From Candidatus Heimdallarchaeota archaeon LC_2 (lineage in GTDB: Archaea; Asgardarchaeota; Heimdallarchaeia; Heimdallarchaeales; Kariarchaeaceae): a stretch of DNA of 12,910 nucleotides. The notes under the pieces were generated by a model that ran no database searches, had not been told where the DNA came from, and saw nothing but the letters and a program-made list of their open reading frames with translations. The stretch spans positions 1-12,910 of the forward strand of contig MDVR01000075.1 in NCBI GenBank assembly GCA_001940725.1, written 5' to 3'. The translations under genes and the position numbers were made by a program. Below are positions 2,610 to 12,910 of this stretch, one piece after another; positions within the stretch are counted from its first letter, which is position 1, and the number at the start of each line of letters is the position of its first letter.

Positions 2610-3521
2610 ATGCTAGCAATTGGTTTCGATCCTTCTTTTATTGACACTCTTGTTAGAGCTGAAAACATAGATGGATCCTTGGCTAAGGATCTACCCTCAC
2701 CGGGTTATCATAATAGAACTCCAACAATAACTCGAATTGCGGGAGGTAATGGCGTTAATTTGTCAGCAATGTTGACAAGCATGGATATAGAACATACTTT
2801 AGTTGTACCTTGTGATCAAGAATTTGAGATTTTACTTAATAAACGAAATATCAAAACCATTGAAAAAATTCAATGTGGTGTAAATAACTCAGTGGGGGTA
2901 ACTTGGTTAGCCGGTGAGATACAATTCAATGATGCAAAATTTGGTCCCGGAAGAGCTCAATGGAATCAAATCATACATAATCTTTGGAAAGATTCACCAC
3001 TTCATTGTTATTTAAATTGGGGATTAAATCCAAATTCTATAGAATGGGTTTCCATTCAATGGCTAGTCTCGTGTGGATGGAGTTATCAAGAAATAATTGA
3101 GGAAAATGACCTATTTAATCAAGCTATCAAAACTGAATACCCACGAAATTCAATTTTACTAGAACCAGGAAGTGTTCAATTCCATAAAGATAATATAAAA
3201 TTAAACCCTCTATTGAATCATATGGCGAAATCTTCTCAAGAATTAGAATATGCTGTTTTCATCAGTAATGAGGAGGAATATAAAGAATATTCTAATATTG
3301 TGATGAAACAGTATATTTTACATACTTCAGAATTTGTTTCCCTAAAACAAAATGACAAAACAAAAAGATACAAAGTACCTCGATTAATGAAAGAGCCTTC
3401 CACTTATGTTGGTGCAGGTGATGCATTTCTAGCTGGAATAGTTAAATCATTAATGAATAATATTCTGGATCCAGAGGTTGGAATTTTGATTGCTCAAGAC
3501 TTCTTAAATGGGAAATTATGA
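2610..3521 (+). CDS. PfkB/ribokinase-fold carbohydrate or nucleoside kinase
   Basis: A 303-residue protein of the ribokinase superfamily, which phosphorylates sugars or nucleosides with ATP or ADP. The substrate-side motif GGNGVN is near residues 45-50. An SNEEEY segment near 218-223 matches the NxxE element involved in Mg/phosphate binding. VGAGDAFLAG near 266-275 is the family signature, with its Asp as catalytic base. An insert around residues 105-160 contains several Trp residues (for example LNWGLNP and IEWVSIQW) and does not resemble the standard lid as I know it. The family is clear but the substrate is not: fructose-1-phosphate, ribose, adenosine/inosine or a modified sugar are all possible. 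The ATG directly abuts the TAA of the hydrolase with no recognisable Shine-Dalgarno site, pointing to coupled translation and perhaps a shared pathway. Confidence 0.88.
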   Translation: MLAIGFDPSFIDTLVRAENIDGSLAKDLPSPGYHNRTPTITRIAGGNGVNLSAMLTSMDIEHTLVVPCDQEFEILLNKRNIKTIEKIQCGVNNSVGVTWLAGEIQFNDAKFGPGRAQWNQIIHNLWKDSPLHCYLNWGLNPNSIEWVSIQWLVSCGWSYQEIIEENDLFNQAIKTEYPRNSILLEPGSVQFHKDNIKLNPLLNHMAKSSQELEYAVFISNEEEYKEYSNIVMKQYILHTSEFVSLKQNDKTKRYKVPRLMKEPSTYVGAGDAFLAGIVKSLMNNILDPEVGILIAQDFLNGKL

Positions 3522-3781: not shown

Positions 3782-6700
3782 ATGGGTAACAAGTACCATT
3801 TTGGAATTTATTTTGTGGCTATTACTACATTAATGATGTTAGTTGCATCTCCTGTGGCAGCAGCTCCGACCTTAAATTCTAATAATCTTAACGCAATAAA
3901 TTCTCAACCTAGCATGGAATTCCTACAAGTAGTTCCAGGGAAAGATAATGCAGTACTTACTAGCATGTATATCTTTGGAGGCGAAGCTCAGCTCCCATTA
4001 GATGTAACAAGCAGCGGTCTTGCAGAAGCTGAATCCTGGTTACTATTATACGGTAATCAAGCTGGTTTCGAAACCTATCTCAATCGATTACCACTGGAAA
4101 CACGTGATGGCTTATCGTTGATTCTTTCATATGAAAGTGGTTCTAACTCTTTCAACTTGGCAGCTGATGCGAAAACCACGGTTGAAAATACGTACAATAT
4201 TGATTTGTTCTTTTCATCTTATAACCTGATTGATGGACTTGATATATATACTTTCTTTGCAGAAGGATCGAGTACCTTATTTACGGCAGTTGCAGATGGA
4301 GTTGAAGATATCAGCAGTGCTGGATTTGCAGCTTTGGAAAAAGCTGATTTAGTCACATCTGCACCAGTAAGTTGGGCAGGATTTGGCGTAACAACCATTT
4401 TTGAAGAGAGTACTTTTAGACAAATAGCAGTACATGGAATGGGGTTTGTTACTACTGATGGAATAACTGGCTCTGGACCTTACACATTATCTACTGATAA
4501 TTTATTAGGTGTAAGTAACATATCACCTCTCGGTGGTTTTGGTCTAAGTCGAGTTCAGATATCATTCCCATATCCAATTGAGCCAACAGCAGGAGGAATA
4601 GTACCAAGTATGACCTCAAATCCATTGCCTCATGTCACGGGACAAATGGTTTGGGATCTCAGACGTCCAGTTGGTTTTACTGTACCAGGTGCTGGAGTAT
4701 ATTCAGTCTCATTTAATGTTGGAATGGATGCTGCATTTCCAATGATAAGAAATGAAATGACAGTCGACAAAGCATTGTTAGACGCAGGTACTCTCCAAGC
4801 TAACTTTACTTTAACAAACGATGGAGACGCACCCGCAGAGAACATTAAAATGAGCTTTCCTTTAGGATCTGATTTTAATCTTATTAAGAATGGAATTGAT
4901 ATATATAAAATTAATAGTTCTAGTTATGCGTTGAATGATGCATTGACATCTACATATAACATCGATCTCTCAAGTTCTTTAGCAAACATCAACTATGATG
5001 CTTTTACACTCACTGGATGGTATGAAGAAGCTGGGAATCCAGGAGTTAGAGCTTTATGGAATCCAATTACTACAATTACATTGTTTGAAAAAACATTAGG
5101 TGAGACATTTACTCTAACTATTTCATCACCTGATGGATTCCCTCAACCCGTTGTTGACGCAATAAATGATGTTATTATCCCAGCCTTAACAGATATTAAC
5201 ATAGATATTAATCTCAAAAATAATCTGGAAGCTGGTATTAGAGACAATCTTCCTGCCGCATTTTTCCAAGCTTACAATGATGCTTTCAATGAACTTTATA
5301 TTAAAGAAAGTAAATTTAATCTGAATTATGCAGGGGATGGTTGGTCATTAGTAGGCCCAGTATCTGTGTCAGTTGGATCTGATCGAGTTGAAAATCAATA
5401 TTTTCTAAAATTAAATGTTAGTACTCTTGCAGTAGATGAAACAAAGGTATTCTCTTTCAGTATTGATAATATTCCTACAACAGCTGATCAACTTGCATTA
5501 ATGAATTTTGTAAAAGAAACAGACATTATAACTGGATTGCCAACTGTCGAATTAATTTCCAAAGTTCAAAACTATGAAGAAGTATTACTATATGCTTTTG
5601 ATAGCCTTGGTTTTGATGGGAGACCTTTATCTGTTAATCTTCCTGATGGAACACGATTAGGATTTGGTAATGATCAAATACCATCTACTCTATCACTAGG
5701 TATGCCATTTACTTGGGAAAATGCAAATAACTTCAAATTCTTTGGATTATCAAATGGTCTAAATCTACAAATTGCAGACGATGAAGCAATGATTTCAGCT
5801 AGTGTAGTTTTAATGGACGCAGATCTTGTCTATAATCCTGGAGATTTGAAAACAATAAAAGTCGATCTTAGTAATTTAGGTGACCTTCCTGCAGAAAATG
5901 TTAGAGTACATATTATGCAAGCTTCTCTTGGTAGAGATAATCAATTATTTGAGAGATATCAAAGACTTGAAACTCTAAATGCAGGAACCCTAGCAGGTTT
6001 TGGAGGAACATGGACAGAAACGATTCAAGTCGAAGCTAATAGTTTCTTAGGATATTCTCCTGTATTTGCAGTAGTTGAATTTGACTCAGATGTAGGTCAA
6101 TCTGGTGTTGTAGTTCCTGATTTCAGAGGTGAAGCTAATTCGGTAACATTCGAAGAAGGTGGAGAAACTCACCACTTTACTATGTCAACCTTGACTGGAG
6201 CTTTATTATTACCTGAAGACCCAACAGCTAGAGCTCCTTCTATTGCGGAACCTCTTCTAAGAATCACAAGATCTGTCGATGTAGATGTCGTCACTTATGT
6301 TGTGAAAAATGTAGGTCTCGCTGATACAGAATTGACTATGTTGCAGGGCTATAAAGGCATGATACTAGACACCAGTGATGTAACAGTCTCAGTTGTCGCA
6401 GATGTTGACATCCTTAGTGTCGAAAACGTAAATGTTCTCACTATAAAGAATATAGATCTTAATGTTGGAGATACTGTAGAAATCAAAATGAAGTTCCAAA
6501 ATGATAATGCTGATGCTTATTTACCACCTGCTTTATTCTCATTTACGACAGGGGGTGAATCCTCTCTCGGTGCAGCTTTCAATTTGGGTGCAGTTGGGAC
6601 TGGAACTCCTAGTTCCATCCTATCATTATCTGCCGGCGCAGCAGCGCAACAAGAAGCACAACAATCAGCCACAGAAGATTCCAGTTCAGCTGCATTCTCA

Positions 6701-6856
6701 GCATCATCATCCGTTGGTGCATCAGTCAATGTAGGTGTTGATACCGATACAAAGACCGTTGGTGACAGCGGTTTCGTTGGACCTTCTGCAACTGAAACTT
6801 TGAGCATAATGCTGATATCTGTAACTCTATTAACATACTTCAGAAGAAGAAAATAA
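3782..6856 (+). CDS. Large secreted surface protein with C-terminal membrane anchor
   Basis: A 1024-residue protein with a clear signal peptide (hydrophobic core at about residues 7-23, then PVAAAP, likely cut near residue 28). A short C-terminal hydrophobic segment (about 1006-1020) ends in the basic tail FRRRK, so the body should lie outside the cell. I found no cysteine in the whole protein. Two segments share NxGDxPAEN: NDGDAPAEN (346-354) and NLGDLPAEN (698-706). A third, VKNVGLADTEL (from 841), is a weaker copy. These resemble beta-sandwich CARDB-type or conserved-repeat modules of archaeal surface proteins. TYNIDL occurs twice (137-142 and 391-396). Before the anchor is a Ser/Ala/Gln-rich, low-complexity stalk (about 950-981). 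Several N-x-S/T sequons are present. No enzyme motif was recognised; the role may be S-layer, adhesion or binding. It is preceded by a 260-base non-coding leader and followed by a hairpin, so it is probably monocistronic. Confidence 0.9.
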   Translation: MGNKYHFGIYFVAITTLMMLVASPVAAAPTLNSNNLNAINSQPSMEFLQVVPGKDNAVLTSMYIFGGEAQLPLDVTSSGLAEAESWLLLYGNQAGFETYLNRLPLETRDGLSLILSYESGSNSFNLAADAKTTVENTYNIDLFFSSYNLIDGLDIYTFFAEGSSTLFTAVADGVEDISSAGFAALEKADLVTSAPVSWAGFGVTTIFEESTFRQIAVHGMGFVTTDGITGSGPYTLSTDNLLGVSNISPLGGFGLSRVQISFPYPIEPTAGGIVPSMTSNPLPHVTGQMVWDLRRPVGFTVPGAGVYSVSFNVGMDAAFPMIRNEMTVDKALLDAGTLQANFTLTNDGDAPAENIKMSFPLGSDFNLIKNGIDIYKINSSSYALNDALTSTYNIDLSSSLANINYDAFTLTGWYEEAGNPGVRALWNPITTITLFEKTLGETFTLTISSPDGFPQPVVDAINDVIIPALTDINIDINLKNNLEAGIRDNLPAAFFQAYNDAFNELYIKESKFNLNYAGDGWSLVGPVSVSVGSDRVENQYFLKLNVSTLAVDETKVFSFSIDNIPTTADQLALMNFVKETDIITGLPTVELISKVQNYEEVLLYAFDSLGFDGRPLSVNLPDGTRLGFGNDQIPSTLSLGMPFTWENANNFKFFGLSNGLNLQIADDEAMISASVVLMDADLVYNPGDLKTIKVDLSNLGDLPAENVRVHIMQASLGRDNQLFERYQRLETLNAGTLAGFGGTWTETIQVEANSFLGYSPVFAVVEFDSDVGQSGVVVPDFRGEANSVTFEEGGETHHFTMSTLTGALLLPEDPTARAPSIAEPLLRITRSVDVDVVTYVVKNVGLADTELTMLQGYKGMILDTSDVTVSVVADVDILSVENVNVLTIKNIDLNVGDTVEIKMKFQNDNADAYLPPALFSFTTGGESSLGAAFNLGAVGTGTPSSILSLSAGAAAQQEAQQSATEDSSSAAFSASSSVGASVNVGVDTDTKTVGDSGFVGPSATETLSIMLISVTLLTYFRRRK

Positions 6857-7018: not shown

Positions 7019-8533
7019 TTGAAATTCAAATTAATAAAATTTACAATAAAAGGAGTTCCATCCAATTACATAATATTACACCCCTCCACAGCAGAAAATC
7101 AAGATCTAGATCCTGGTTCTCTGTTAGTAACTGAAGACAATACAATTGGATTCAGATTAATTACATCAGCAAGTGTTGATCAAGGCTTTGCTGGACTTCC
7201 ACCCGATCGATTTAATGGAGAATCACTCATCGAAGGTCAAGACATTACACTCATTTCTGCAGGCGTTGAAAGTCTGACTAAGATTATCAGAAGAAAAATG
7301 GATAAAAAAACTTTATCAGATCGTGAAATTGATGATTTTATGAGTGCGATTGCTCATGGATTAGTTACCAAAAGTCATATGACTGCATTTGGAACTGCTG
7401 TTGAGATTAATGGTATGCATGGGGATGAAATAACTTCTGTTGCTCAATCAATAATAAAAAATTCAAGGAAATTCTCACATTCCGGAAAAAAAGTTGTTGA
7501 TAAACATTCCATAGGAGGTATAGCAGGTAATCGAATTACACCTCTAATGATACCAATAATTTCTGCATGTGGATTGGTTATCCCTAAAATATCCACAAGA
7601 GCAATAACTTCACCTGCAGGCACTGTTGATGCCCTTGAAACCGTGATGCCAGTTGATTTAACATTTGAAGAAGCATCTGAAGTATTAGATAAAACTAACG
7701 CATGTATGGTAAATGGAGCAACCGTAGAACTAGGATCTGTTGCAGATAAATTTCTGGAGGCAGTTAGTCCACTAAAGATTGACCCAAAGGAAATGATGAT
7801 TGCCTCAATACTTGCAAAGAAGAAAGCTGCCGGATCAGATTTTGTTTTAATTGATTTACCAACAGGTAAAGGGTCCAAACTGGCTTCGAGAGAGGATGCT
7901 AGATCTTTAGCATATGATTTTTCAAGGATTGGTAATTCGCTTGGTCAGCATATTGAGGCAGTTATTTCACCAGGAGATAAACCAGTTGGATCCATGATTG
8001 GTCCTTCTCTAGAAATGAAAGAAGTGATGACCATACTCGAATGCTCTGGTGGGGCACTTTCATTAAAACGGAAAGCAACAAGTTTAGCAGGACTAATTCT
8101 AGAAGGCGTTCAGCAGGCAAATAGAGGTGAAGGGCAACAAATGGCTACTGAGATTATTGACTCAGGCAAGGCCCTATCGAAATTCAGAGAAATTGTAGCA
8201 GCTCAAGGAGGTGATGCTAGTGTTACATCAAATAGTATCCCTCATGCACCATATTCACATGTAATTGAAGCTGAAAAATCTGATATCGTCTATGCTTTGG
8301 ATAGTTATAGTATTGGTGTTATGGCACGTGCCGCAGGTGCACCTCACGATAGTCACGCCGGTGTAATAATTCATGTTGATAGAGGAGATAATCTGAAACC
8401 AGGAGATCCAATAATAGAAATTAGATCACATTCTGAAGGGAAATTATCTGAAGCTATAGAAATGATGCGTACTGCACCCCCAATCATATTAGAACAATCC
8501 GTTCTAGAACATATTACAGGTATTAGTAACTGA
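7019..8533 (+). CDS. deoA: AMP phosphorylase, archaeal thymidine phosphorylase-like
   Basis: A 504-residue enzyme, the usual length for archaeal AMP phosphorylase, which converts a nucleoside 5'-monophosphate and phosphate to the free base and ribose 1,5-bisphosphate. It has the archaeal N-terminal domain (about residues 1-85), then the helical phosphorylase core beginning near RRKMDKKTLSDREID. Phosphate-binding KHSIGG (162-167) and SxRAITSPAGTxD (192-204) match AMP phosphorylase rather than bacterial thymidine phosphorylase, which to my knowledge has KHSTGG and a different second motif. In archaea this enzyme feeds ribose 1,5-bisphosphate isomerase and type III RuBisCO, linking nucleotide salvage to 3-phosphoglycerate. 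Neither partner is in this window, though pgk, acting on 3-phosphoglycerate, lies 3 kb away. It starts at TTG behind a strong ribosome-binding site and ends 31 bases from the convergent nuclease-like gene. Confidence 0.94.
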   Translation: MKFKLIKFTIKGVPSNYIILHPSTAENQDLDPGSLLVTEDNTIGFRLITSASVDQGFAGLPPDRFNGESLIEGQDITLISAGVESLTKIIRRKMDKKTLSDREIDDFMSAIAHGLVTKSHMTAFGTAVEINGMHGDEITSVAQSIIKNSRKFSHSGKKVVDKHSIGGIAGNRITPLMIPIISACGLVIPKISTRAITSPAGTVDALETVMPVDLTFEEASEVLDKTNACMVNGATVELGSVADKFLEAVSPLKIDPKEMMIASILAKKKAAGSDFVLIDLPTGKGSKLASREDARSLAYDFSRIGNSLGQHIEAVISPGDKPVGSMIGPSLEMKEVMTILECSGGALSLKRKATSLAGLILEGVQQANRGEGQQMATEIIDSGKALSKFREIVAAQGGDASVTSNSIPHAPYSHVIEAEKSDIVYALDSYSIGVMARAAGAPHDSHAGVIIHVDRGDNLKPGDPIIEIRSHSEGKLSEAIEMMRTAPPIILEQSVLEHITGISN

Positions 8534-8564: not shown

Positions 8565-9095
8565 TTAGAAATAGTCCTTAAGTGAATTTTGGGAGTATCC
8601 ACAAAGGTTTCTTTTCTGCAAATTATCTATTAACTTTTCAGGAGTGGAAACGAAAATTTCCAGTTTCTTAGATTTTAATAACTCAATAGGAATGTGATTT
8701 GAAAATTGCTCTTCCCTAATTATATTTCGAATTGGGTAATCCCTAGTATAAACGACTGCACCAAAATAACGTTTATCCTGATTACCCCATCGATTATTCT
8801 GATTTACAGATTCAAATAATTTTCCAATATATCTGCAAACTTGTTCTATAGCATTTATATGGATTGAATTACTTATTTTTGCATAAGTTTTGACTTCAAT
8901 TACCCCAAAAATCACTTCTGCCTCTGACTTATAAATAATAACAATATCAGCTCTATTTGATTTGCTTAATCGCAATTCTTCAAATTTCATAAATTCAAAA
9001 CTGGATAATAAATAAGCGATTGCACTTTGAGCCTCTTGCCATTGAAGCACTGCCCATTCGGTCCTTCCACTGGGTAAAACATTATTATATACCAA
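8565..9095 (-). CDS. PD-(D/E)XK nuclease-like protein of unknown role
   Basis: A 176-residue protein with the layout of the restriction-endonuclease-like fold. It has an N-terminal helix rich in Gln/Glu (about residues 12-31), then NRADIVIIY with D50, then GVIEVKTY with E67 and K69, and a following helix with Q85 and Y89. D50-(16)-E67-x-K69 is the classical catalytic triad, so it is probably active on nucleic acid. The specific family is not recognised. It is not an obvious Holliday junction resolvase, and no methylase, helicase or other defence gene accompanies it. The start shown is TTG at 9093-9095, with a TATA-like TTAAAATATAT about 20-30 bases upstream. The next ATG (residue 36) would remove the first helix. 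It is divergent from the zinc-site protein and convergent with AMP phosphorylase. Confidence 0.75.
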   Translation of the reverse strand: MVYNNVLPSGRTEWAVLQWQEAQSAIAYLLSSFEFMKFEELRLSKSNRADIVIIYKSEAEVIFGVIEVKTYAKISNSIHINAIEQVCRYIGKLFESVNQNNRWGNQDKRYFGAVVYTRDYPIRNIIREEQFSNHIPIELLKSKKLEIFVSTPEKLIDNLQKRNLCGYSQNSLKDYF

Positions 9096-9196: not shown

Positions 9197-9817
9197 ATGA
9201 TGTCATTACTAGTTCATCCTAGACATTCAGTTCAGTTATTGCAATATGTAACTAGACGATTTAATGGCATAATAGGTTTTAACTTAATAAAAGTCAAGAC
9301 TAATAGTGTTAAAATTAATTTTCCTTTACATCAAAACTCAAATGAATCAGTAATGGCTATTTTATTTACTAAACTCGCAACTTCTTTCAAAATAATCAAT
9401 GTAAGATACTTAGGAAAAAATGAAAAACATCGTCATGTACAGGTAAAATTCAATCAAGATGAAGATTTTTTTCAAATAAAAATTTCTGGTAGTCTTTATG
9501 TTCCAACTAGTAAATTTCTGAAATTATATAATTTGATCCTTTGGTATTATATAAGATATATAACAGGACAAAAACCATCAATGTCAGAAAAAGGTAGAAC
9601 ACTCTCAGAATTATGGAAATCTGAAGGTAAGCAAATAATAAAGGAAATCAATGCATTACCACGTAAAATGAATGTAAGTTATAACTCCCATCCATGTAAT
9701 ATTTGTGGAGAAAGTACCCTCAGAAGTAATTTATGGAAATTTAAATCAAAACGATTATCTTCAGGGATAGAAATAGAAACCTTTGTTTGTGAAAAACATC
9801 TGGATAAATTAATTTAA
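9197..9817 (+). CDS. Unrecognised protein with a C-terminal CxxC...CxxH putative zinc site
   Basis: A 206-residue protein I do not recognise. The N-terminal 130 or so residues alternate hydrophobic and basic residues, suggesting a mixed alpha/beta domain; a run near 127-139 (KLYNLILWYYIRYI) is hydrophobic and aromatic and could be a buried helix or a weak membrane-associated one. The C-terminus carries HPCNICGE, about 30 residues of basic linker, then VCEKHLD: a CxxC plus CxxH set able to hold one zinc ion. The protein is basic overall, so nucleic-acid or ribosome contact is possible, but this is inference. Two ATGs are adjacent (9197 and 9200). The gene is divergent from the nuclease-like gene and ends 12 bases from the convergent protease gene. 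Length, promoter placement and the Cys/His cluster support a real gene. Confidence 0.7.
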   Translation: MMSLLVHPRHSVQLLQYVTRRFNGIIGFNLIKVKTNSVKINFPLHQNSNESVMAILFTKLATSFKIINVRYLGKNEKHRHVQVKFNQDEDFFQIKISGSLYVPTSKFLKLYNLILWYYIRYITGQKPSMSEKGRTLSELWKSEGKQIIKEINALPRKMNVSYNSHPCNICGESTLRSNLWKFKSKRLSSGIEIETFVCEKHLDKLI

Positions 9818-9829
9818 ACAGATTAAATA

Positions 9830-11722
9830 CTAATCATCTATAAAATTATTGAATAATATATTAAAACCACTGGATGGTACATTTTCGAAGTATTCATTAG
9901 TAATAAAATTTGTTCCACCTAAAATTAAATAATTTCCATTCCCAATTGTTCCCAAAATTCCGATCGATAAAAATTCGAATCCAACATTAAAAGGATCTAC
10001 AGCAATTTTTACCCAACCAAGCTCAGTTGTATTTTCCCCGGTTGATCGTATTTCACCCCCAATATAAAAAAACTCATCCACACCGGTTACAATATCATCT
10101 GATGAGAAATTTGATACTATTTGAGGTAATCCGCTATAACTACCAATGTCGAGACCTGTGTATTCTGCTGAATATCTTGATAAATACTGCGAGGCTTGAT
10201 TAATATTTGTATATTCACTGCCATCACTCAATATTATTAAAGATCCACCATCAATTACGTATTGCTCGTAACTGTCTAACAAATCATCATTCAAAGGTCG
10301 CGTTATCGTAAGATTTTGTATCGTTTGGGCTTCAGCAAATCTGGGTACAATAACAGATTTATAGTCTGCGTATTCATAATTGATTTCGGTTAACAATTTA
10401 TGATGGACAATATAACCATTTGATCTCAGGAATCCTTCAAAATTGCTAAATTCTCCGTAAGGGTGCCCATAACCATTAACTGATGTTCTATGATCCAACA
10501 ATATTTTCCCATTTGAAGGTTCTATAATATTGAATCTATATTCAAAGGCATTCCCAATGTCTGTTTTAACCTGCAGAACGTATGATCCTGTTTTATTATT
10601 TGAATTAAAATTAATTGTGAGATATCCACCCCATGGGTTTATTTCAATTTGGTAATTATCGATTAGAGATACTCCATTTCCTATTAGGTCTAAATGAAGA
10701 TTTTTGGGATCATCGAAGCCTATTGTACTGAATTTCCAAGACCTTGACCAAGTTTCATCAGAAAATCGATTGTGGACATCGGTTTCATTTACTGCATGAA
10801 AAATGGTGGTTTGATCTGTTATATTCAATTTATTGTAGGATTCAGATTGGAGTAAATCAAAATCAATCTTCCCCCATCCAGAAAGCTTGTCAAAGACAGC
10901 AGAGTTCCACCCCACAGTTAATGTCGAAAATATTCCTTGTAACTCATTTAGAGTAGGCTGATTTCCATTTTTCCGTAAAATAAATAATAATTGGGATAAT
11001 CTTCCAGTTATTCTTGGAGCCGCGAAAGATGATCCTTGTTTCCCGGATTTTGAACCATCATCCAAATATTCTGTAACATAATTACCAAAGTAACCCATTC
11101 CACCTACTGTATAATCTGCAGGTAGTAACGAATTTTGACCATCGTATGCACCTACTCCAATCACCCAAGGATAAACAGCAGGCCATTCAATATATCCAGA
11201 ATCTTCAAAATTATTATCACCACCATTTCCAGTTGAAGCAACGAAAATTGTTTCATTTTGATATTCATAAAATACTTGATCAAGCATATCTGAAATATAA
11301 GGTACTGATCCTAATGATAGATTAATTATGTCAACTTCCATTTCCTCAACTAACCATGAAATAGCTGCTAGAATACTTTGAAATGTTAACTCGCCGTTGT
11401 AATTAGCGATTCTTGCGGAATATAGTTCCGAATTTGGGCTCTCATCATGAATTATATCACAAATCAATGTTCCATGATCTAATTTGTCGTATACATTTTC
11501 ATCATCGGAAAAGAAACCATATTCTTTAGTTGTAAATGAAGTATAAGCCTTTACAAATGATTCTTGACTTTCCGCACATCCACTATCTATAACTCCAACT
11601 TTAGTAAAATTAGTTTTATCATCATTGAATAATGTAGGAGTTAAAACATTCAATGTAAATCCTCCCAACAGTATGAGAATTAAGACAATAACCACAGAAA
11701 CTTGAGGCTCATTTAGTTTCAT
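9830..11722 (-). CDS. Membrane-anchored S8 (subtilisin-like) serine protease with Site-1-protease-like C-terminal domains
   Basis: A 630-residue protein with one hydrophobic segment at residues 8-26 (signal anchor or uncut signal), placing the rest outside the cell. The subtilase domain is intact: VIDSG with D46, DHGT with H83, oxyanion ASTGN with N166, and GSSFAAP with S232. Only about 15 residues separate the membrane segment from the protease domain, so there is no I9-type prodomain. After the domain (ending near GWGKIDFDLL, 282-291) come a beta-rich segment with INPWGGYLTI (361-370) and an alpha/beta domain. The latter contains GKILLDH (405-411), YGHPYGEF (418-425), FLRSNGYIV (431-439), DGGSLIILSD (491-500) and NYLILGGTNF (597-606), running to the end. 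As I recall eukaryotic Site-1 protease, motifs of the same kind occur in the same order there. The physiological substrate is unknown. The gene starts 36 bases after pgk on the same strand and may be co-transcribed with it. Confidence 0.93.
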   Translation of the reverse strand: MKLNEPQVSVVIVLILILLGGFTLNVLTPTLFNDDKTNFTKVGVIDSGCAESQESFVKAYTSFTTKEYGFFSDDENVYDKLDHGTLICDIIHDESPNSELYSARIANYNGELTFQSILAAISWLVEEMEVDIINLSLGSVPYISDMLDQVFYEYQNETIFVASTGNGGDNNFEDSGYIEWPAVYPWVIGVGAYDGQNSLLPADYTVGGMGYFGNYVTEYLDDGSKSGKQGSSFAAPRITGRLSQLLFILRKNGNQPTLNELQGIFSTLTVGWNSAVFDKLSGWGKIDFDLLQSESYNKLNITDQTTIFHAVNETDVHNRFSDETWSRSWKFSTIGFDDPKNLHLDLIGNGVSLIDNYQIEINPWGGYLTINFNSNNKTGSYVLQVKTDIGNAFEYRFNIIEPSNGKILLDHRTSVNGYGHPYGEFSNFEGFLRSNGYIVHHKLLTEINYEYADYKSVIVPRFAEAQTIQNLTITRPLNDDLLDSYEQYVIDGGSLIILSDGSEYTNINQASQYLSRYSAEYTGLDIGSYSGLPQIVSNFSSDDIVTGVDEFFYIGGEIRSTGENTTELGWVKIAVDPFNVGFEFLSIGILGTIGNGNYLILGGTNFITNEYFENVPSSGFNILFNNFIDD

Positions 11723-11758: not shown

Positions 11759-12910
11759 TTACAAAGGTTTTCCTATTAAGCAATTAATTCCGGGCATTGG
11801 TTTCCCACTCATTAGTTCCAATGTAGCACCACCACCAGTTGATATATGAATATTTTCAGGAATTTCAGCAATTTCAGCAATTTTAATAGCATATATTGTA
11901 TCACCGCCACCAATGATAATGTTTGCTGAACTGGAAAAAATTGCTGTGGTGATGGCTAGTGTACCAGATTTATATAATTCCTGTTCAAATACACCCATTG
12001 GCCCATTCCAAATAATAGAATTGGCTTTTTCGATAACATTTATGAACAATTTTTCTGAGTTAGGCCCAATATCTAATCCCATCGTCAAATCTGGAATTTG
12101 GCAAGAATTCACTATTTTTGCTTCTTCTTTCTCGATAATTGGGTTTTCAAAATCGTGACCTATTCTAATATCTACTGGCAAATGAATACCAACATGTTTT
12201 CTCTTTGCTGTTAACAGAATATCTTTTGCCACATCAATCATGTCTTCTTCAATTAGAGAAGTTCCAACTTTACCTCCATTTGCAACTATGAAGGTGAAGG
12301 CCATTGCCCCGCCTATGATTAAATCATCAACAACATTGACAAAATTCTTTAGAATTTCTAATTTTGATGAAATCTTAGCCCCGCCAACAATGGCTAATGA
12401 AGGGCTTAAAGGATTTGAAGTAGCGTCGGTTATACGGATAAATTCTTTTTCCATTAAAAATCCAGTATAACCTGGAATATAACGAGTAATTCCTTCCGTT
12501 GATGCATGACCTCTATGAGAGGAACCGAAGGCATCAGATACAAAAATTTCACCCAAAAGTGCTAATTCTTTGGCTAGGTGAGTACTATTCTTGGTTTCTC
12601 CTTCATGAAATCGAGTATTTTCTAACAAAATCACTTGATATGTATCATCAGATAGTCCTTCGATTAATGCTTCAGATTCAGAACCTATTAATTCTGATGA
12701 GAATTTAACTTCTCGATTGAGATGTTTGGACAAATGTGTTGCAACAGGCCTTAGAGAAAATTTTTTATCAACTCCCTTTGGCCTTCCAAGATGAGACATT
12801 AAAATTACATATCCTCCTTTGTCAAGAATGTAATTTATTGTAGATAAACTTCGAACAATCTTTGTGTCATCAAGGACCATTCCATCTTCAATAGGGACAT
12901 TGTAATCAAC
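11759..12910 (-). CDS. pgk: Phosphoglycerate kinase, bacterial/eukaryal type, missing its N-terminal tip
   Basis: The enzyme moves phosphate between 1,3-bisphosphoglycerate and ADP in glycolysis and gluconeogenesis. The reading frame stays open to the right edge: the first complete codons give VDYNVPIEDG, matching the N-terminal RVDFNVP element, so the ATG at 12878-12880 is an internal Met and about 15-20 residues lie outside the window. The visible 383 residues contain SHLGRPKG (39-46 of the fragment), LENTRFHEGE, SDAFGSSHRGHAS, GGAKISSK, WNGPMGVFE, GGGDT and HISTGGGATLE, covering both substrate and nucleotide lobes. To my knowledge typical archaeal enzymes have different versions (for example a THQGKP-like loop, LENLRFSAEE and DAFATAHRS), so this copy is of the bacterial/eukaryal type and may have been acquired by transfer. 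It is followed by the protease gene after 36 bases. Confidence 0.96.
   Translation of the reverse strand, partial: VDYNVPIEDGMVLDDTKIVRSLSTINYILDKGGYVILMSHLGRPKGVDKKFSLRPVATHLSKHLNREVKFSSELIGSESEALIEGLSDDTYQVILLENTRFHEGETKNSTHLAKELALLGEIFVSDAFGSSHRGHASTEGITRYIPGYTGFLMEKEFIRITDATSNPLSPSLAIVGGAKISSKLEILKNFVNVVDDLIIGGAMAFTFIVANGGKVGTSLIEEDMIDVAKDILLTAKRKHVGIHLPVDIRIGHDFENPIIEKEEAKIVNSCQIPDLTMGLDIGPNSEKLFINVIEKANSIIWNGPMGVFEQELYKSGTLAITTAIFSSSANIIIGGGDTIYAIKIAEIAEIPENIHISTGGGATLELMSGKPMPGINCLIGKPL

Follow-up and report, generated by a model that had tools for sequence, protein, structure and literature searches.

An archaeal S8 protease with the ectodomain plan of eukaryotic Site-1 protease in Candidatus Heimdallarchaeota archaeon LC_2

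A 12,910-nucleotide stretch of DNA from Candidatus Heimdallarchaeota archaeon LC_2 (assembly GCA_001940725.1, contig MDVR01000075.1), referred to here as the window, carries a gene for a 630-amino-acid (aa) protein in which a peptidase S8 domain, a beta-sandwich recognized by its predicted fold and a GIFT domain follow one another in one chain. This is the domain order of eukaryotic Site-1 protease (S1P; MBTPS1/SKI-1) that the first-pass annotation of the DNA had claimed. The protein is probably a serine endopeptidase that works outside the cytoplasm and belongs to an archaeal family with the S1P ectodomain plan, and one old S8/beta-sandwich/GIFT ancestor probably stands behind both S1P and the archaeal forms. 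Rather than an orthologue of S1P, it is one of the short members of this family, which lack a prodomain; the family occurs in many Asgard genomes and also in Bathyarchaeia. A common origin with S1P is likely, though unproven. S1P turns on cholesterol genes in humans; it is about 1050 aa long, cleaves after RxxL-type motifs and makes the first cut of a two-step membrane cascade. The Asgard archaea are related to the ancestors of complex cells. In the accessible parts of the open-access literature, neither S1P/MBTPS1 or regulated intramembrane proteolysis in connection with archaea or eukaryogenesis nor Asgard proteases yielded a report of such an architecture, and no description of the long Asgard S8/GIFT proteases treated below was found there.

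Domain architecture

The gene occupies positions 9830..11722 on the minus strand (open reading frame with an ATG start, stop codon included), and its product is probably membrane-anchored. The S8 catalytic domain, at about residues 40-296 (10835..11605, minus), was delimited by Pfam, by VIA-align against subtilisins and by its catalytic residues. Peptidase_S8 (PF00082; E 5.7e-25, residues 40-253) was the sole Pfam family over cut-off in the protein. D46, H83, N166 and S232, i.e., the S8 triad and the oxyanion Asn, were invariant in the alignment of all 18 family members, which bears out the intact catalytic set read from the sequence at first. When S1P was aligned with its archaeal relatives, these residues stood opposite S1P D218, H249, N338 and S414 (PDB chain index minus 6), the residues named in PMC11231238. 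The S8 domain is common to the window protein, subtilisins (BPN', intracellular subtilisin) and Vpr (8jmw), and the VIA-align matches of the latter proteins stop at this domain, at about model residue 303 (one row reached 336). Two cysteines of the domain were nearly invariant (at least 90%) in the 18-member family: C49 (11576-11578, minus), directly after the catalytic DSG, and C88 (11459-11461, minus), five residues past the catalytic His. Their equivalents are absent from the Loki-type rows and from S1P, and a disulfide or thiol control near the active site is conceivable.

A beta-sandwich follows at about residues 307-404 (10511..10804, minus), in the position of the S1P P-like subdomain, as judged from model strands, VIA-align and the alignment. 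Its strands span residues 324-400 in the predicted model. It holds the motif PWGGYLTI, whose W364 was invariant in 18 of 18 family members. The remainder, residues 405-630 (9833..10510, minus), is a GIFT/GATase-like domain: the C-terminal model, with a predicted local distance difference test score (pLDDT) of 87.9, matched IFT52, OST48, S1P and STM1381. The N-terminal GIFT domain of IFT52 and that of OST48/DDOST matched the window model only from about residue 405 on, and neither protein is known to have an S8 domain. In VIA-align the C-terminal model superposed on S1P residues 478-869, and with the whole-chain model a single superposition took in all three S1P domains over 538 residues.

The two ends of the chain differ from those of S1P (8uw8, 8uwc, 9csd), which has A and B prodomains, a C-terminal transmembrane helix and a short cytoplasmic tail. 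A helix at residues 7-31 (11630..11704, minus) was predicted by the model and was hydrophobic in the hydropathy scan, which found an N-terminal hydrophobic segment in all 18 family members; it may be a signal anchor or a signal peptide. Only 45 residues precede D46, and because about 15 of them lie between this helix and the catalytic Asp, there is no room for a prodomain, and neither the A nor the B prodomain of S1P was found. The catalytic Asp was at residue 42-63 in 17 of the 18 family members (the simple pattern failed on P0012). No C-terminal hydrophobic segment was detected in the window protein by the hydropathy scan, and the chain ends in the GIFT domain.

Sequence relationship with S1P

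The motifs quoted in the first-pass annotation are all present in the window protein, and six pairs aligned with S1P in the claimed register (GWGKIDF/GHGKLDL, PWGGYLTI/PWSGYLAI, KILLD/RVLWD, LRSNGYIV/LRSMGYFV, DGGSLIILSD/NGLSLVIFSD and NYLILGGTNF/GRIVLYGDSN). However, GYGHPYGEF aligned with S1P NGDHIHTNF and not with YPPGYF. By itself, the motif resemblance is weak, and it is significant only through wider relatives and structure. The C-terminal profile of the window family (18 sequences) reached 9.1 bits (E 5.3) against S1P, where the best of 1000 shuffles reached 3.1 bits, and its two weak matching segments were the PWGGYLTI and LRSNGYIV regions. A four-member C-terminal profile had no significant match in the PDB.

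Wider profiles gave a clearer link. Profile A6, built from 22 archaeal C-terminal regions, matched in the PDB IFT52 (2.3e-10), the Salmonella GATase-like proteins 3soz (2e-6) and 2gk3 (5.8e-6), and S1P (1.8e-4), and among these only S1P was covered over both beta-sandwich and GIFT (profile 53-240). With a profile of 22 long Asgard C-terminal regions, E was 4.2e-10 for the C-terminal part of S1P in a search space of 177,635, and 2.7e-5 for the window protein in one of 1,000,000. The pooled profile of 53 rows, in which at least four proteins were entered twice (P0078, P0086, P0095, and L041 = P0049), matched S1P at 6e-13 with 51.7 bits; 1000 shuffles gave at most 2.5 bits and the reversed sequence was unreported. 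The C-termini of 104 generic S8 proteins scored at most 7.6 bits, but this control is not independent, since the 11 proteins omitted before it was chosen (P0088, P0093, P0097, P0102, P0108, P0122, P0124, P0128, P0132, P0137 and P0140) had all matched the profiles earlier; P0072, P0074 and P0075 were also left out. When the pooled profile was split, its S1P signal was located in the GIFT part (8e-10).

Distribution of the family

A search with residues 265-630 over 5.8 billion proteins returned, besides the query, three relatives (64, 48 and 46% identity), two of them named Candidatus Kariarchaeaceae and Candidatus Heimdallarchaeota, and the alignment showed the window protein to be conserved along its length in all three. 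A scan of genome contigs gave one locus, L001, from Candidatus Heimdallarchaeota. The profile search separated 18 proteins (P0001-P0018, P0001 being the window protein) at E <1e-130 from the next at 7e-33. The genome searches for the architecture covered the Asgard phylum, to which L001 belongs; the C-terminal profile A2 was matched in 74 of its 227 genomes. Among the first 30 loci, a single frame combined S8 with the C-terminal region in 22, and the other eight frames, 415-467 aa long, gave no S8 match; a further 20 loci, picked for frames of at least 600 aa, all had S8. Four of the short frames were scanned (L017, L018, L024 and L034; 415-459 aa), and IFT52_GIFT was over cut-off in each; they are possibly relatives of IFT52 or of gliding/ABC-associated proteins.

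The long Asgard S8/GIFT proteases (such as P0049-P0065 and L081-L090) have S8 and the same C-terminal region as the window protein and, unlike it, a prodomain-sized N-terminus and mostly a C-terminal hydrophobic segment. Some of them reach Pfam MBTPS1_4th (PF23090), e.g., P0062 with 31.2 bits (cut-off 27). This family was matched in 23 of 225 Asgard genomes at E 0.001, in 11 of them over cut-off, vs none of 14 control genomes. Ten of these 11 loci were fetched; in every one of the ten, S8 and the C-terminal region shared a frame, and nine, all but L083 (797 aa), had the C-terminal hydrophobic segment. Pfam MBTPS1_3rd (PF23094) was uninformative because the control matched nowhere; the window protein was unlisted and 0 of 225 Asgard genomes matched. 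Both long and short forms occurred in at least two Heimdall-type genomes (L043 with L001, L085 with L010). In some long forms (P0056, P0062, P0064, L040, L041) a zinc ribbon (PF13240 over cut-off) sits at the extreme C-terminus, perhaps a cytosolic partner-binding tail.

The long Asgard forms came from a search with an Odinarchaeum protein as query. In it, the organism-named rows with at least 96% coverage among the best 120 of 492 matches were Asgard (Odin, Atabey, Thor, Hodar, Loki), and Streptomyces or Bathyarchaeia rows covered 41-54%; as only these 120 were listed, absence from bacteria cannot be claimed. Restriction of the architecture to Asgards was rejected, for P0088 (3.4e-9) and P0108 (2.9e-6), both named Bathyarchaeia, matched profile A6. 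Like P0122, P0132 and P0140, these two are 1620-1780 aa long, and in all five the S8 domain is soon followed by a GIFT-like stretch; in P0088 a CUB match just passed its cut-off as well.

Phylogenetic analyses and possible origin

The most economical history derives S1P, together with both the long and the short archaeal forms, from one old S8/beta-sandwich/GIFT protease. Several results weigh against it. By sequence the S8 domain matched bacterial subtilisins, and the 60 PDB matches listed in the full-family search were subtilisins only, S1P not being among them. In the whole-chain fold search the third S1P entry, 8uwc, stood no higher than rank 40 (4.9e-13). For the C-terminal part, the plain Foldseek list, headed by Ig-like and beta-galactosidase matches, had neither S1P nor IFT52 among its 50 matches; a second look with VIA-align matched both. 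The beta-sandwich was not significant by sequence alone (9.7 bits vs 9.4 for the best of 1000 shuffles), and MBTPS1_4th, unlike in S1P, had no match on the 630-aa window protein at E up to 10. Moreover, six of seven GIFT profiles favoured IFT52 over S1P (in bits: short, 14.1 vs -0.6; Loki, 22.1 vs 10.2; long, 60.8 vs 31.9; all S8-linked, 58.3 vs 44.3; free-standing, 28.7 vs 7.3; Bathyarchaeia-type, 17.0 vs 0.3). The Bathyarchaeia-type set comprised eight rows, of which only P0088 and P0108 were so named. Only the profile of nine forms of about 1000 aa favoured S1P (23.7 vs 17.0 bits for IFT52). The free S8 tree likewise placed S1P, on a long branch, not with the Asgards but with three generic rows (two named Vpr; support 89).

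All trees were quick searches. The S8 tree included 96 hand-picked domains of 212 (P0055 was dropped from the set). Constraining S1P with the short family (approximately unbiased [AU] test, p 0.628) or with all Asgards (p 0.71) was not rejected, and both trees were likelier than the free one. In the whole-region tree (50 rows) S1P fell in a set of 29 rows (support 97) with long forms, Bathyarchaeia-type rows, two others and L043, and the short branch of the window stood apart; AU p was 0.331 for S1P with the short family, 0.235 with core long forms and 0.543 with Bathyarchaeia-type rows and the two others. The GIFT tree (54 rows; long set halved; P0078, P0086 and P0095 in two sets) was unresolved, p being 0.414 when S1P was held with S8-linked GIFTs, 0.2 when it was held with the 1000-aa set and 0.383 when it was held with IFT52 and OST48. 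As several constrained trees were likelier than the free tree, the free topologies are not trusted, and none of the trees settles the history of S1P. The first-pass reading of the protein as a possible prokaryotic relative of S1P is supported in part.

The beta-sandwich and a GIFT/GATase-like domain could have been gained separately by S8 proteases in archaea and in the ancestor of S1P. Such a convergent fusion would fit the free S8 tree, the GIFT domain being closer to IFT52 in most profiles and by Z in VIA-align of the C-terminal model, the Asgard GIFT frames without S8, and P0102 and P0128, in which S8 and the C-terminal-type stretch lie far apart. However, it is rather unlikely, given the single superposition over all three S1P domains, the profile match colinear across beta-sandwich and GIFT, and AU tests that reject S1P neither with all Asgard S8 domains nor with S8-linked GIFTs. 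S8 proteases are commonly secreted for nutrition, and the protein may be an ordinary extracellular peptide-scavenging subtilase whose C-terminal domains are binding or stability modules, its S1P likeness being irrelevant to function. Many generic S8 proteins among the best 120 of 492 matches of the Odinarchaeum query, and protein degradation reported for sediment archaea (PMC9123169), agree with this possibility, which we consider a substantial one though not the likelier. The predicted N-terminal helix, which may hold the protease at the membrane, the place beside the phosphoglycerate kinase gene kept in five of eight Heimdall-type genomes (see below) and the invariance of the non-catalytic W364 and Y485 argue against it, although each of these points would also be compatible with nutrition. 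It is much less probable that the protease acts as the site-1 enzyme that starts a two-step membrane signalling cascade completed by an Asgard M50 site-2 protease. The S1P-like ectodomain and M50 proteases in 8 of 8 related genomes would suit it, but M50 proteases were also present in 14 of 14 control genomes, so the site-2 protease search was uninformative; the nine window proteins scanned included no M50 protease.

Under the preferred history of one old ancestor, S1P may have come from a pre-eukaryotic archaeal S8/P-like/GIFT membrane protease, of which Asgards keep long forms with the full plan (prodomain, S8, beta-sandwich, GIFT, transmembrane segment) and a short Heimdall branch. We put this forward tentatively, at slightly less than even chances. 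If true, the SREBP/ATF6 signalling protease would be an inherited archaeal surface protease whose GIFT domain was already a substrate or partner gate. As many Asgard genomes encode S8, GIFT and, where S1P has its P-like subdomain, a beta-sandwich in a single chain, these proteins are candidate prokaryotic relatives of S1P and make its origin testable, and the prodomain-less homologues offer a simpler setting for studying GIFT domain function.

Possible function

The N-terminal hydrophobic helix would tether the protease to the outer membrane face, where the S8 domain may cleave surface or secreted proteins and the beta-sandwich may stabilize the protease or aid its folding. According to PMC11231238, the GIFT and S8 subdomains of S1P contact each other via loops supporting the oxyanion residue, and a GIFT loop may govern access to the active site. 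The archaeal GIFT domain, presumably non-catalytic, could similarly place a substrate or partner and shape the active-site cleft. As there is no prodomain, the simplest reading is that the short Heimdall branch would be synthesized in active form, without a zymogen stage, and regulated by its location or by a partner. Processing of cell-surface proteins is the likeliest role, and signalling proteolysis is possible.

Genomic neighborhood

Only 36 bases upstream of the protease gene lies a phosphoglycerate kinase (PGK) gene, cut by the window edge (11759..12910, minus; PF00162, 7.4e-122). PGK adjoins the S8 gene in five of eight Heimdall-type genomes (G001, G034, G035, G036 and G037, at L001, L050, L049, L008 and L048, respectively), on the same strand in all but L001. 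On the other side, a convergent gene (9197..9817, plus) encodes a 206-aa protein with no Pfam family over cut-off, kept beside the S8 gene in G035 and G037. It is followed by genes for a 176-aa protein with a weak VRR-NUC-like match (8565..9095, minus; E 0.021, below cut-off) and an AMP/thymidine phosphorylase (7019..8533, plus; NF003338 over cut-off), both conserved in the block; the order PGK, protease, 206-aa protein, VRR-NUC-like protein, AMP phosphorylase is the same in G035 and G037.

A 1024-aa protein encoded at 3782-6853 has an N-terminal signal-like stretch, a C-terminal hydrophobic stretch ending in FRRRK and no Pfam match over cut-off. Homologues were present in seven of eight Heimdall-type genomes, and in four of the eight (G035, G036, G037 and G038) on the protease contig, the matches in G035 and G037 being partial. 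By its position alone this surface-type protein is a possible substrate of the protease. A divergent PfkB-like protein, below the Pfam cut-off, is encoded at 2610-3521, between a gene of the metallo-beta-lactamase fold and that of the 1024-aa protein.
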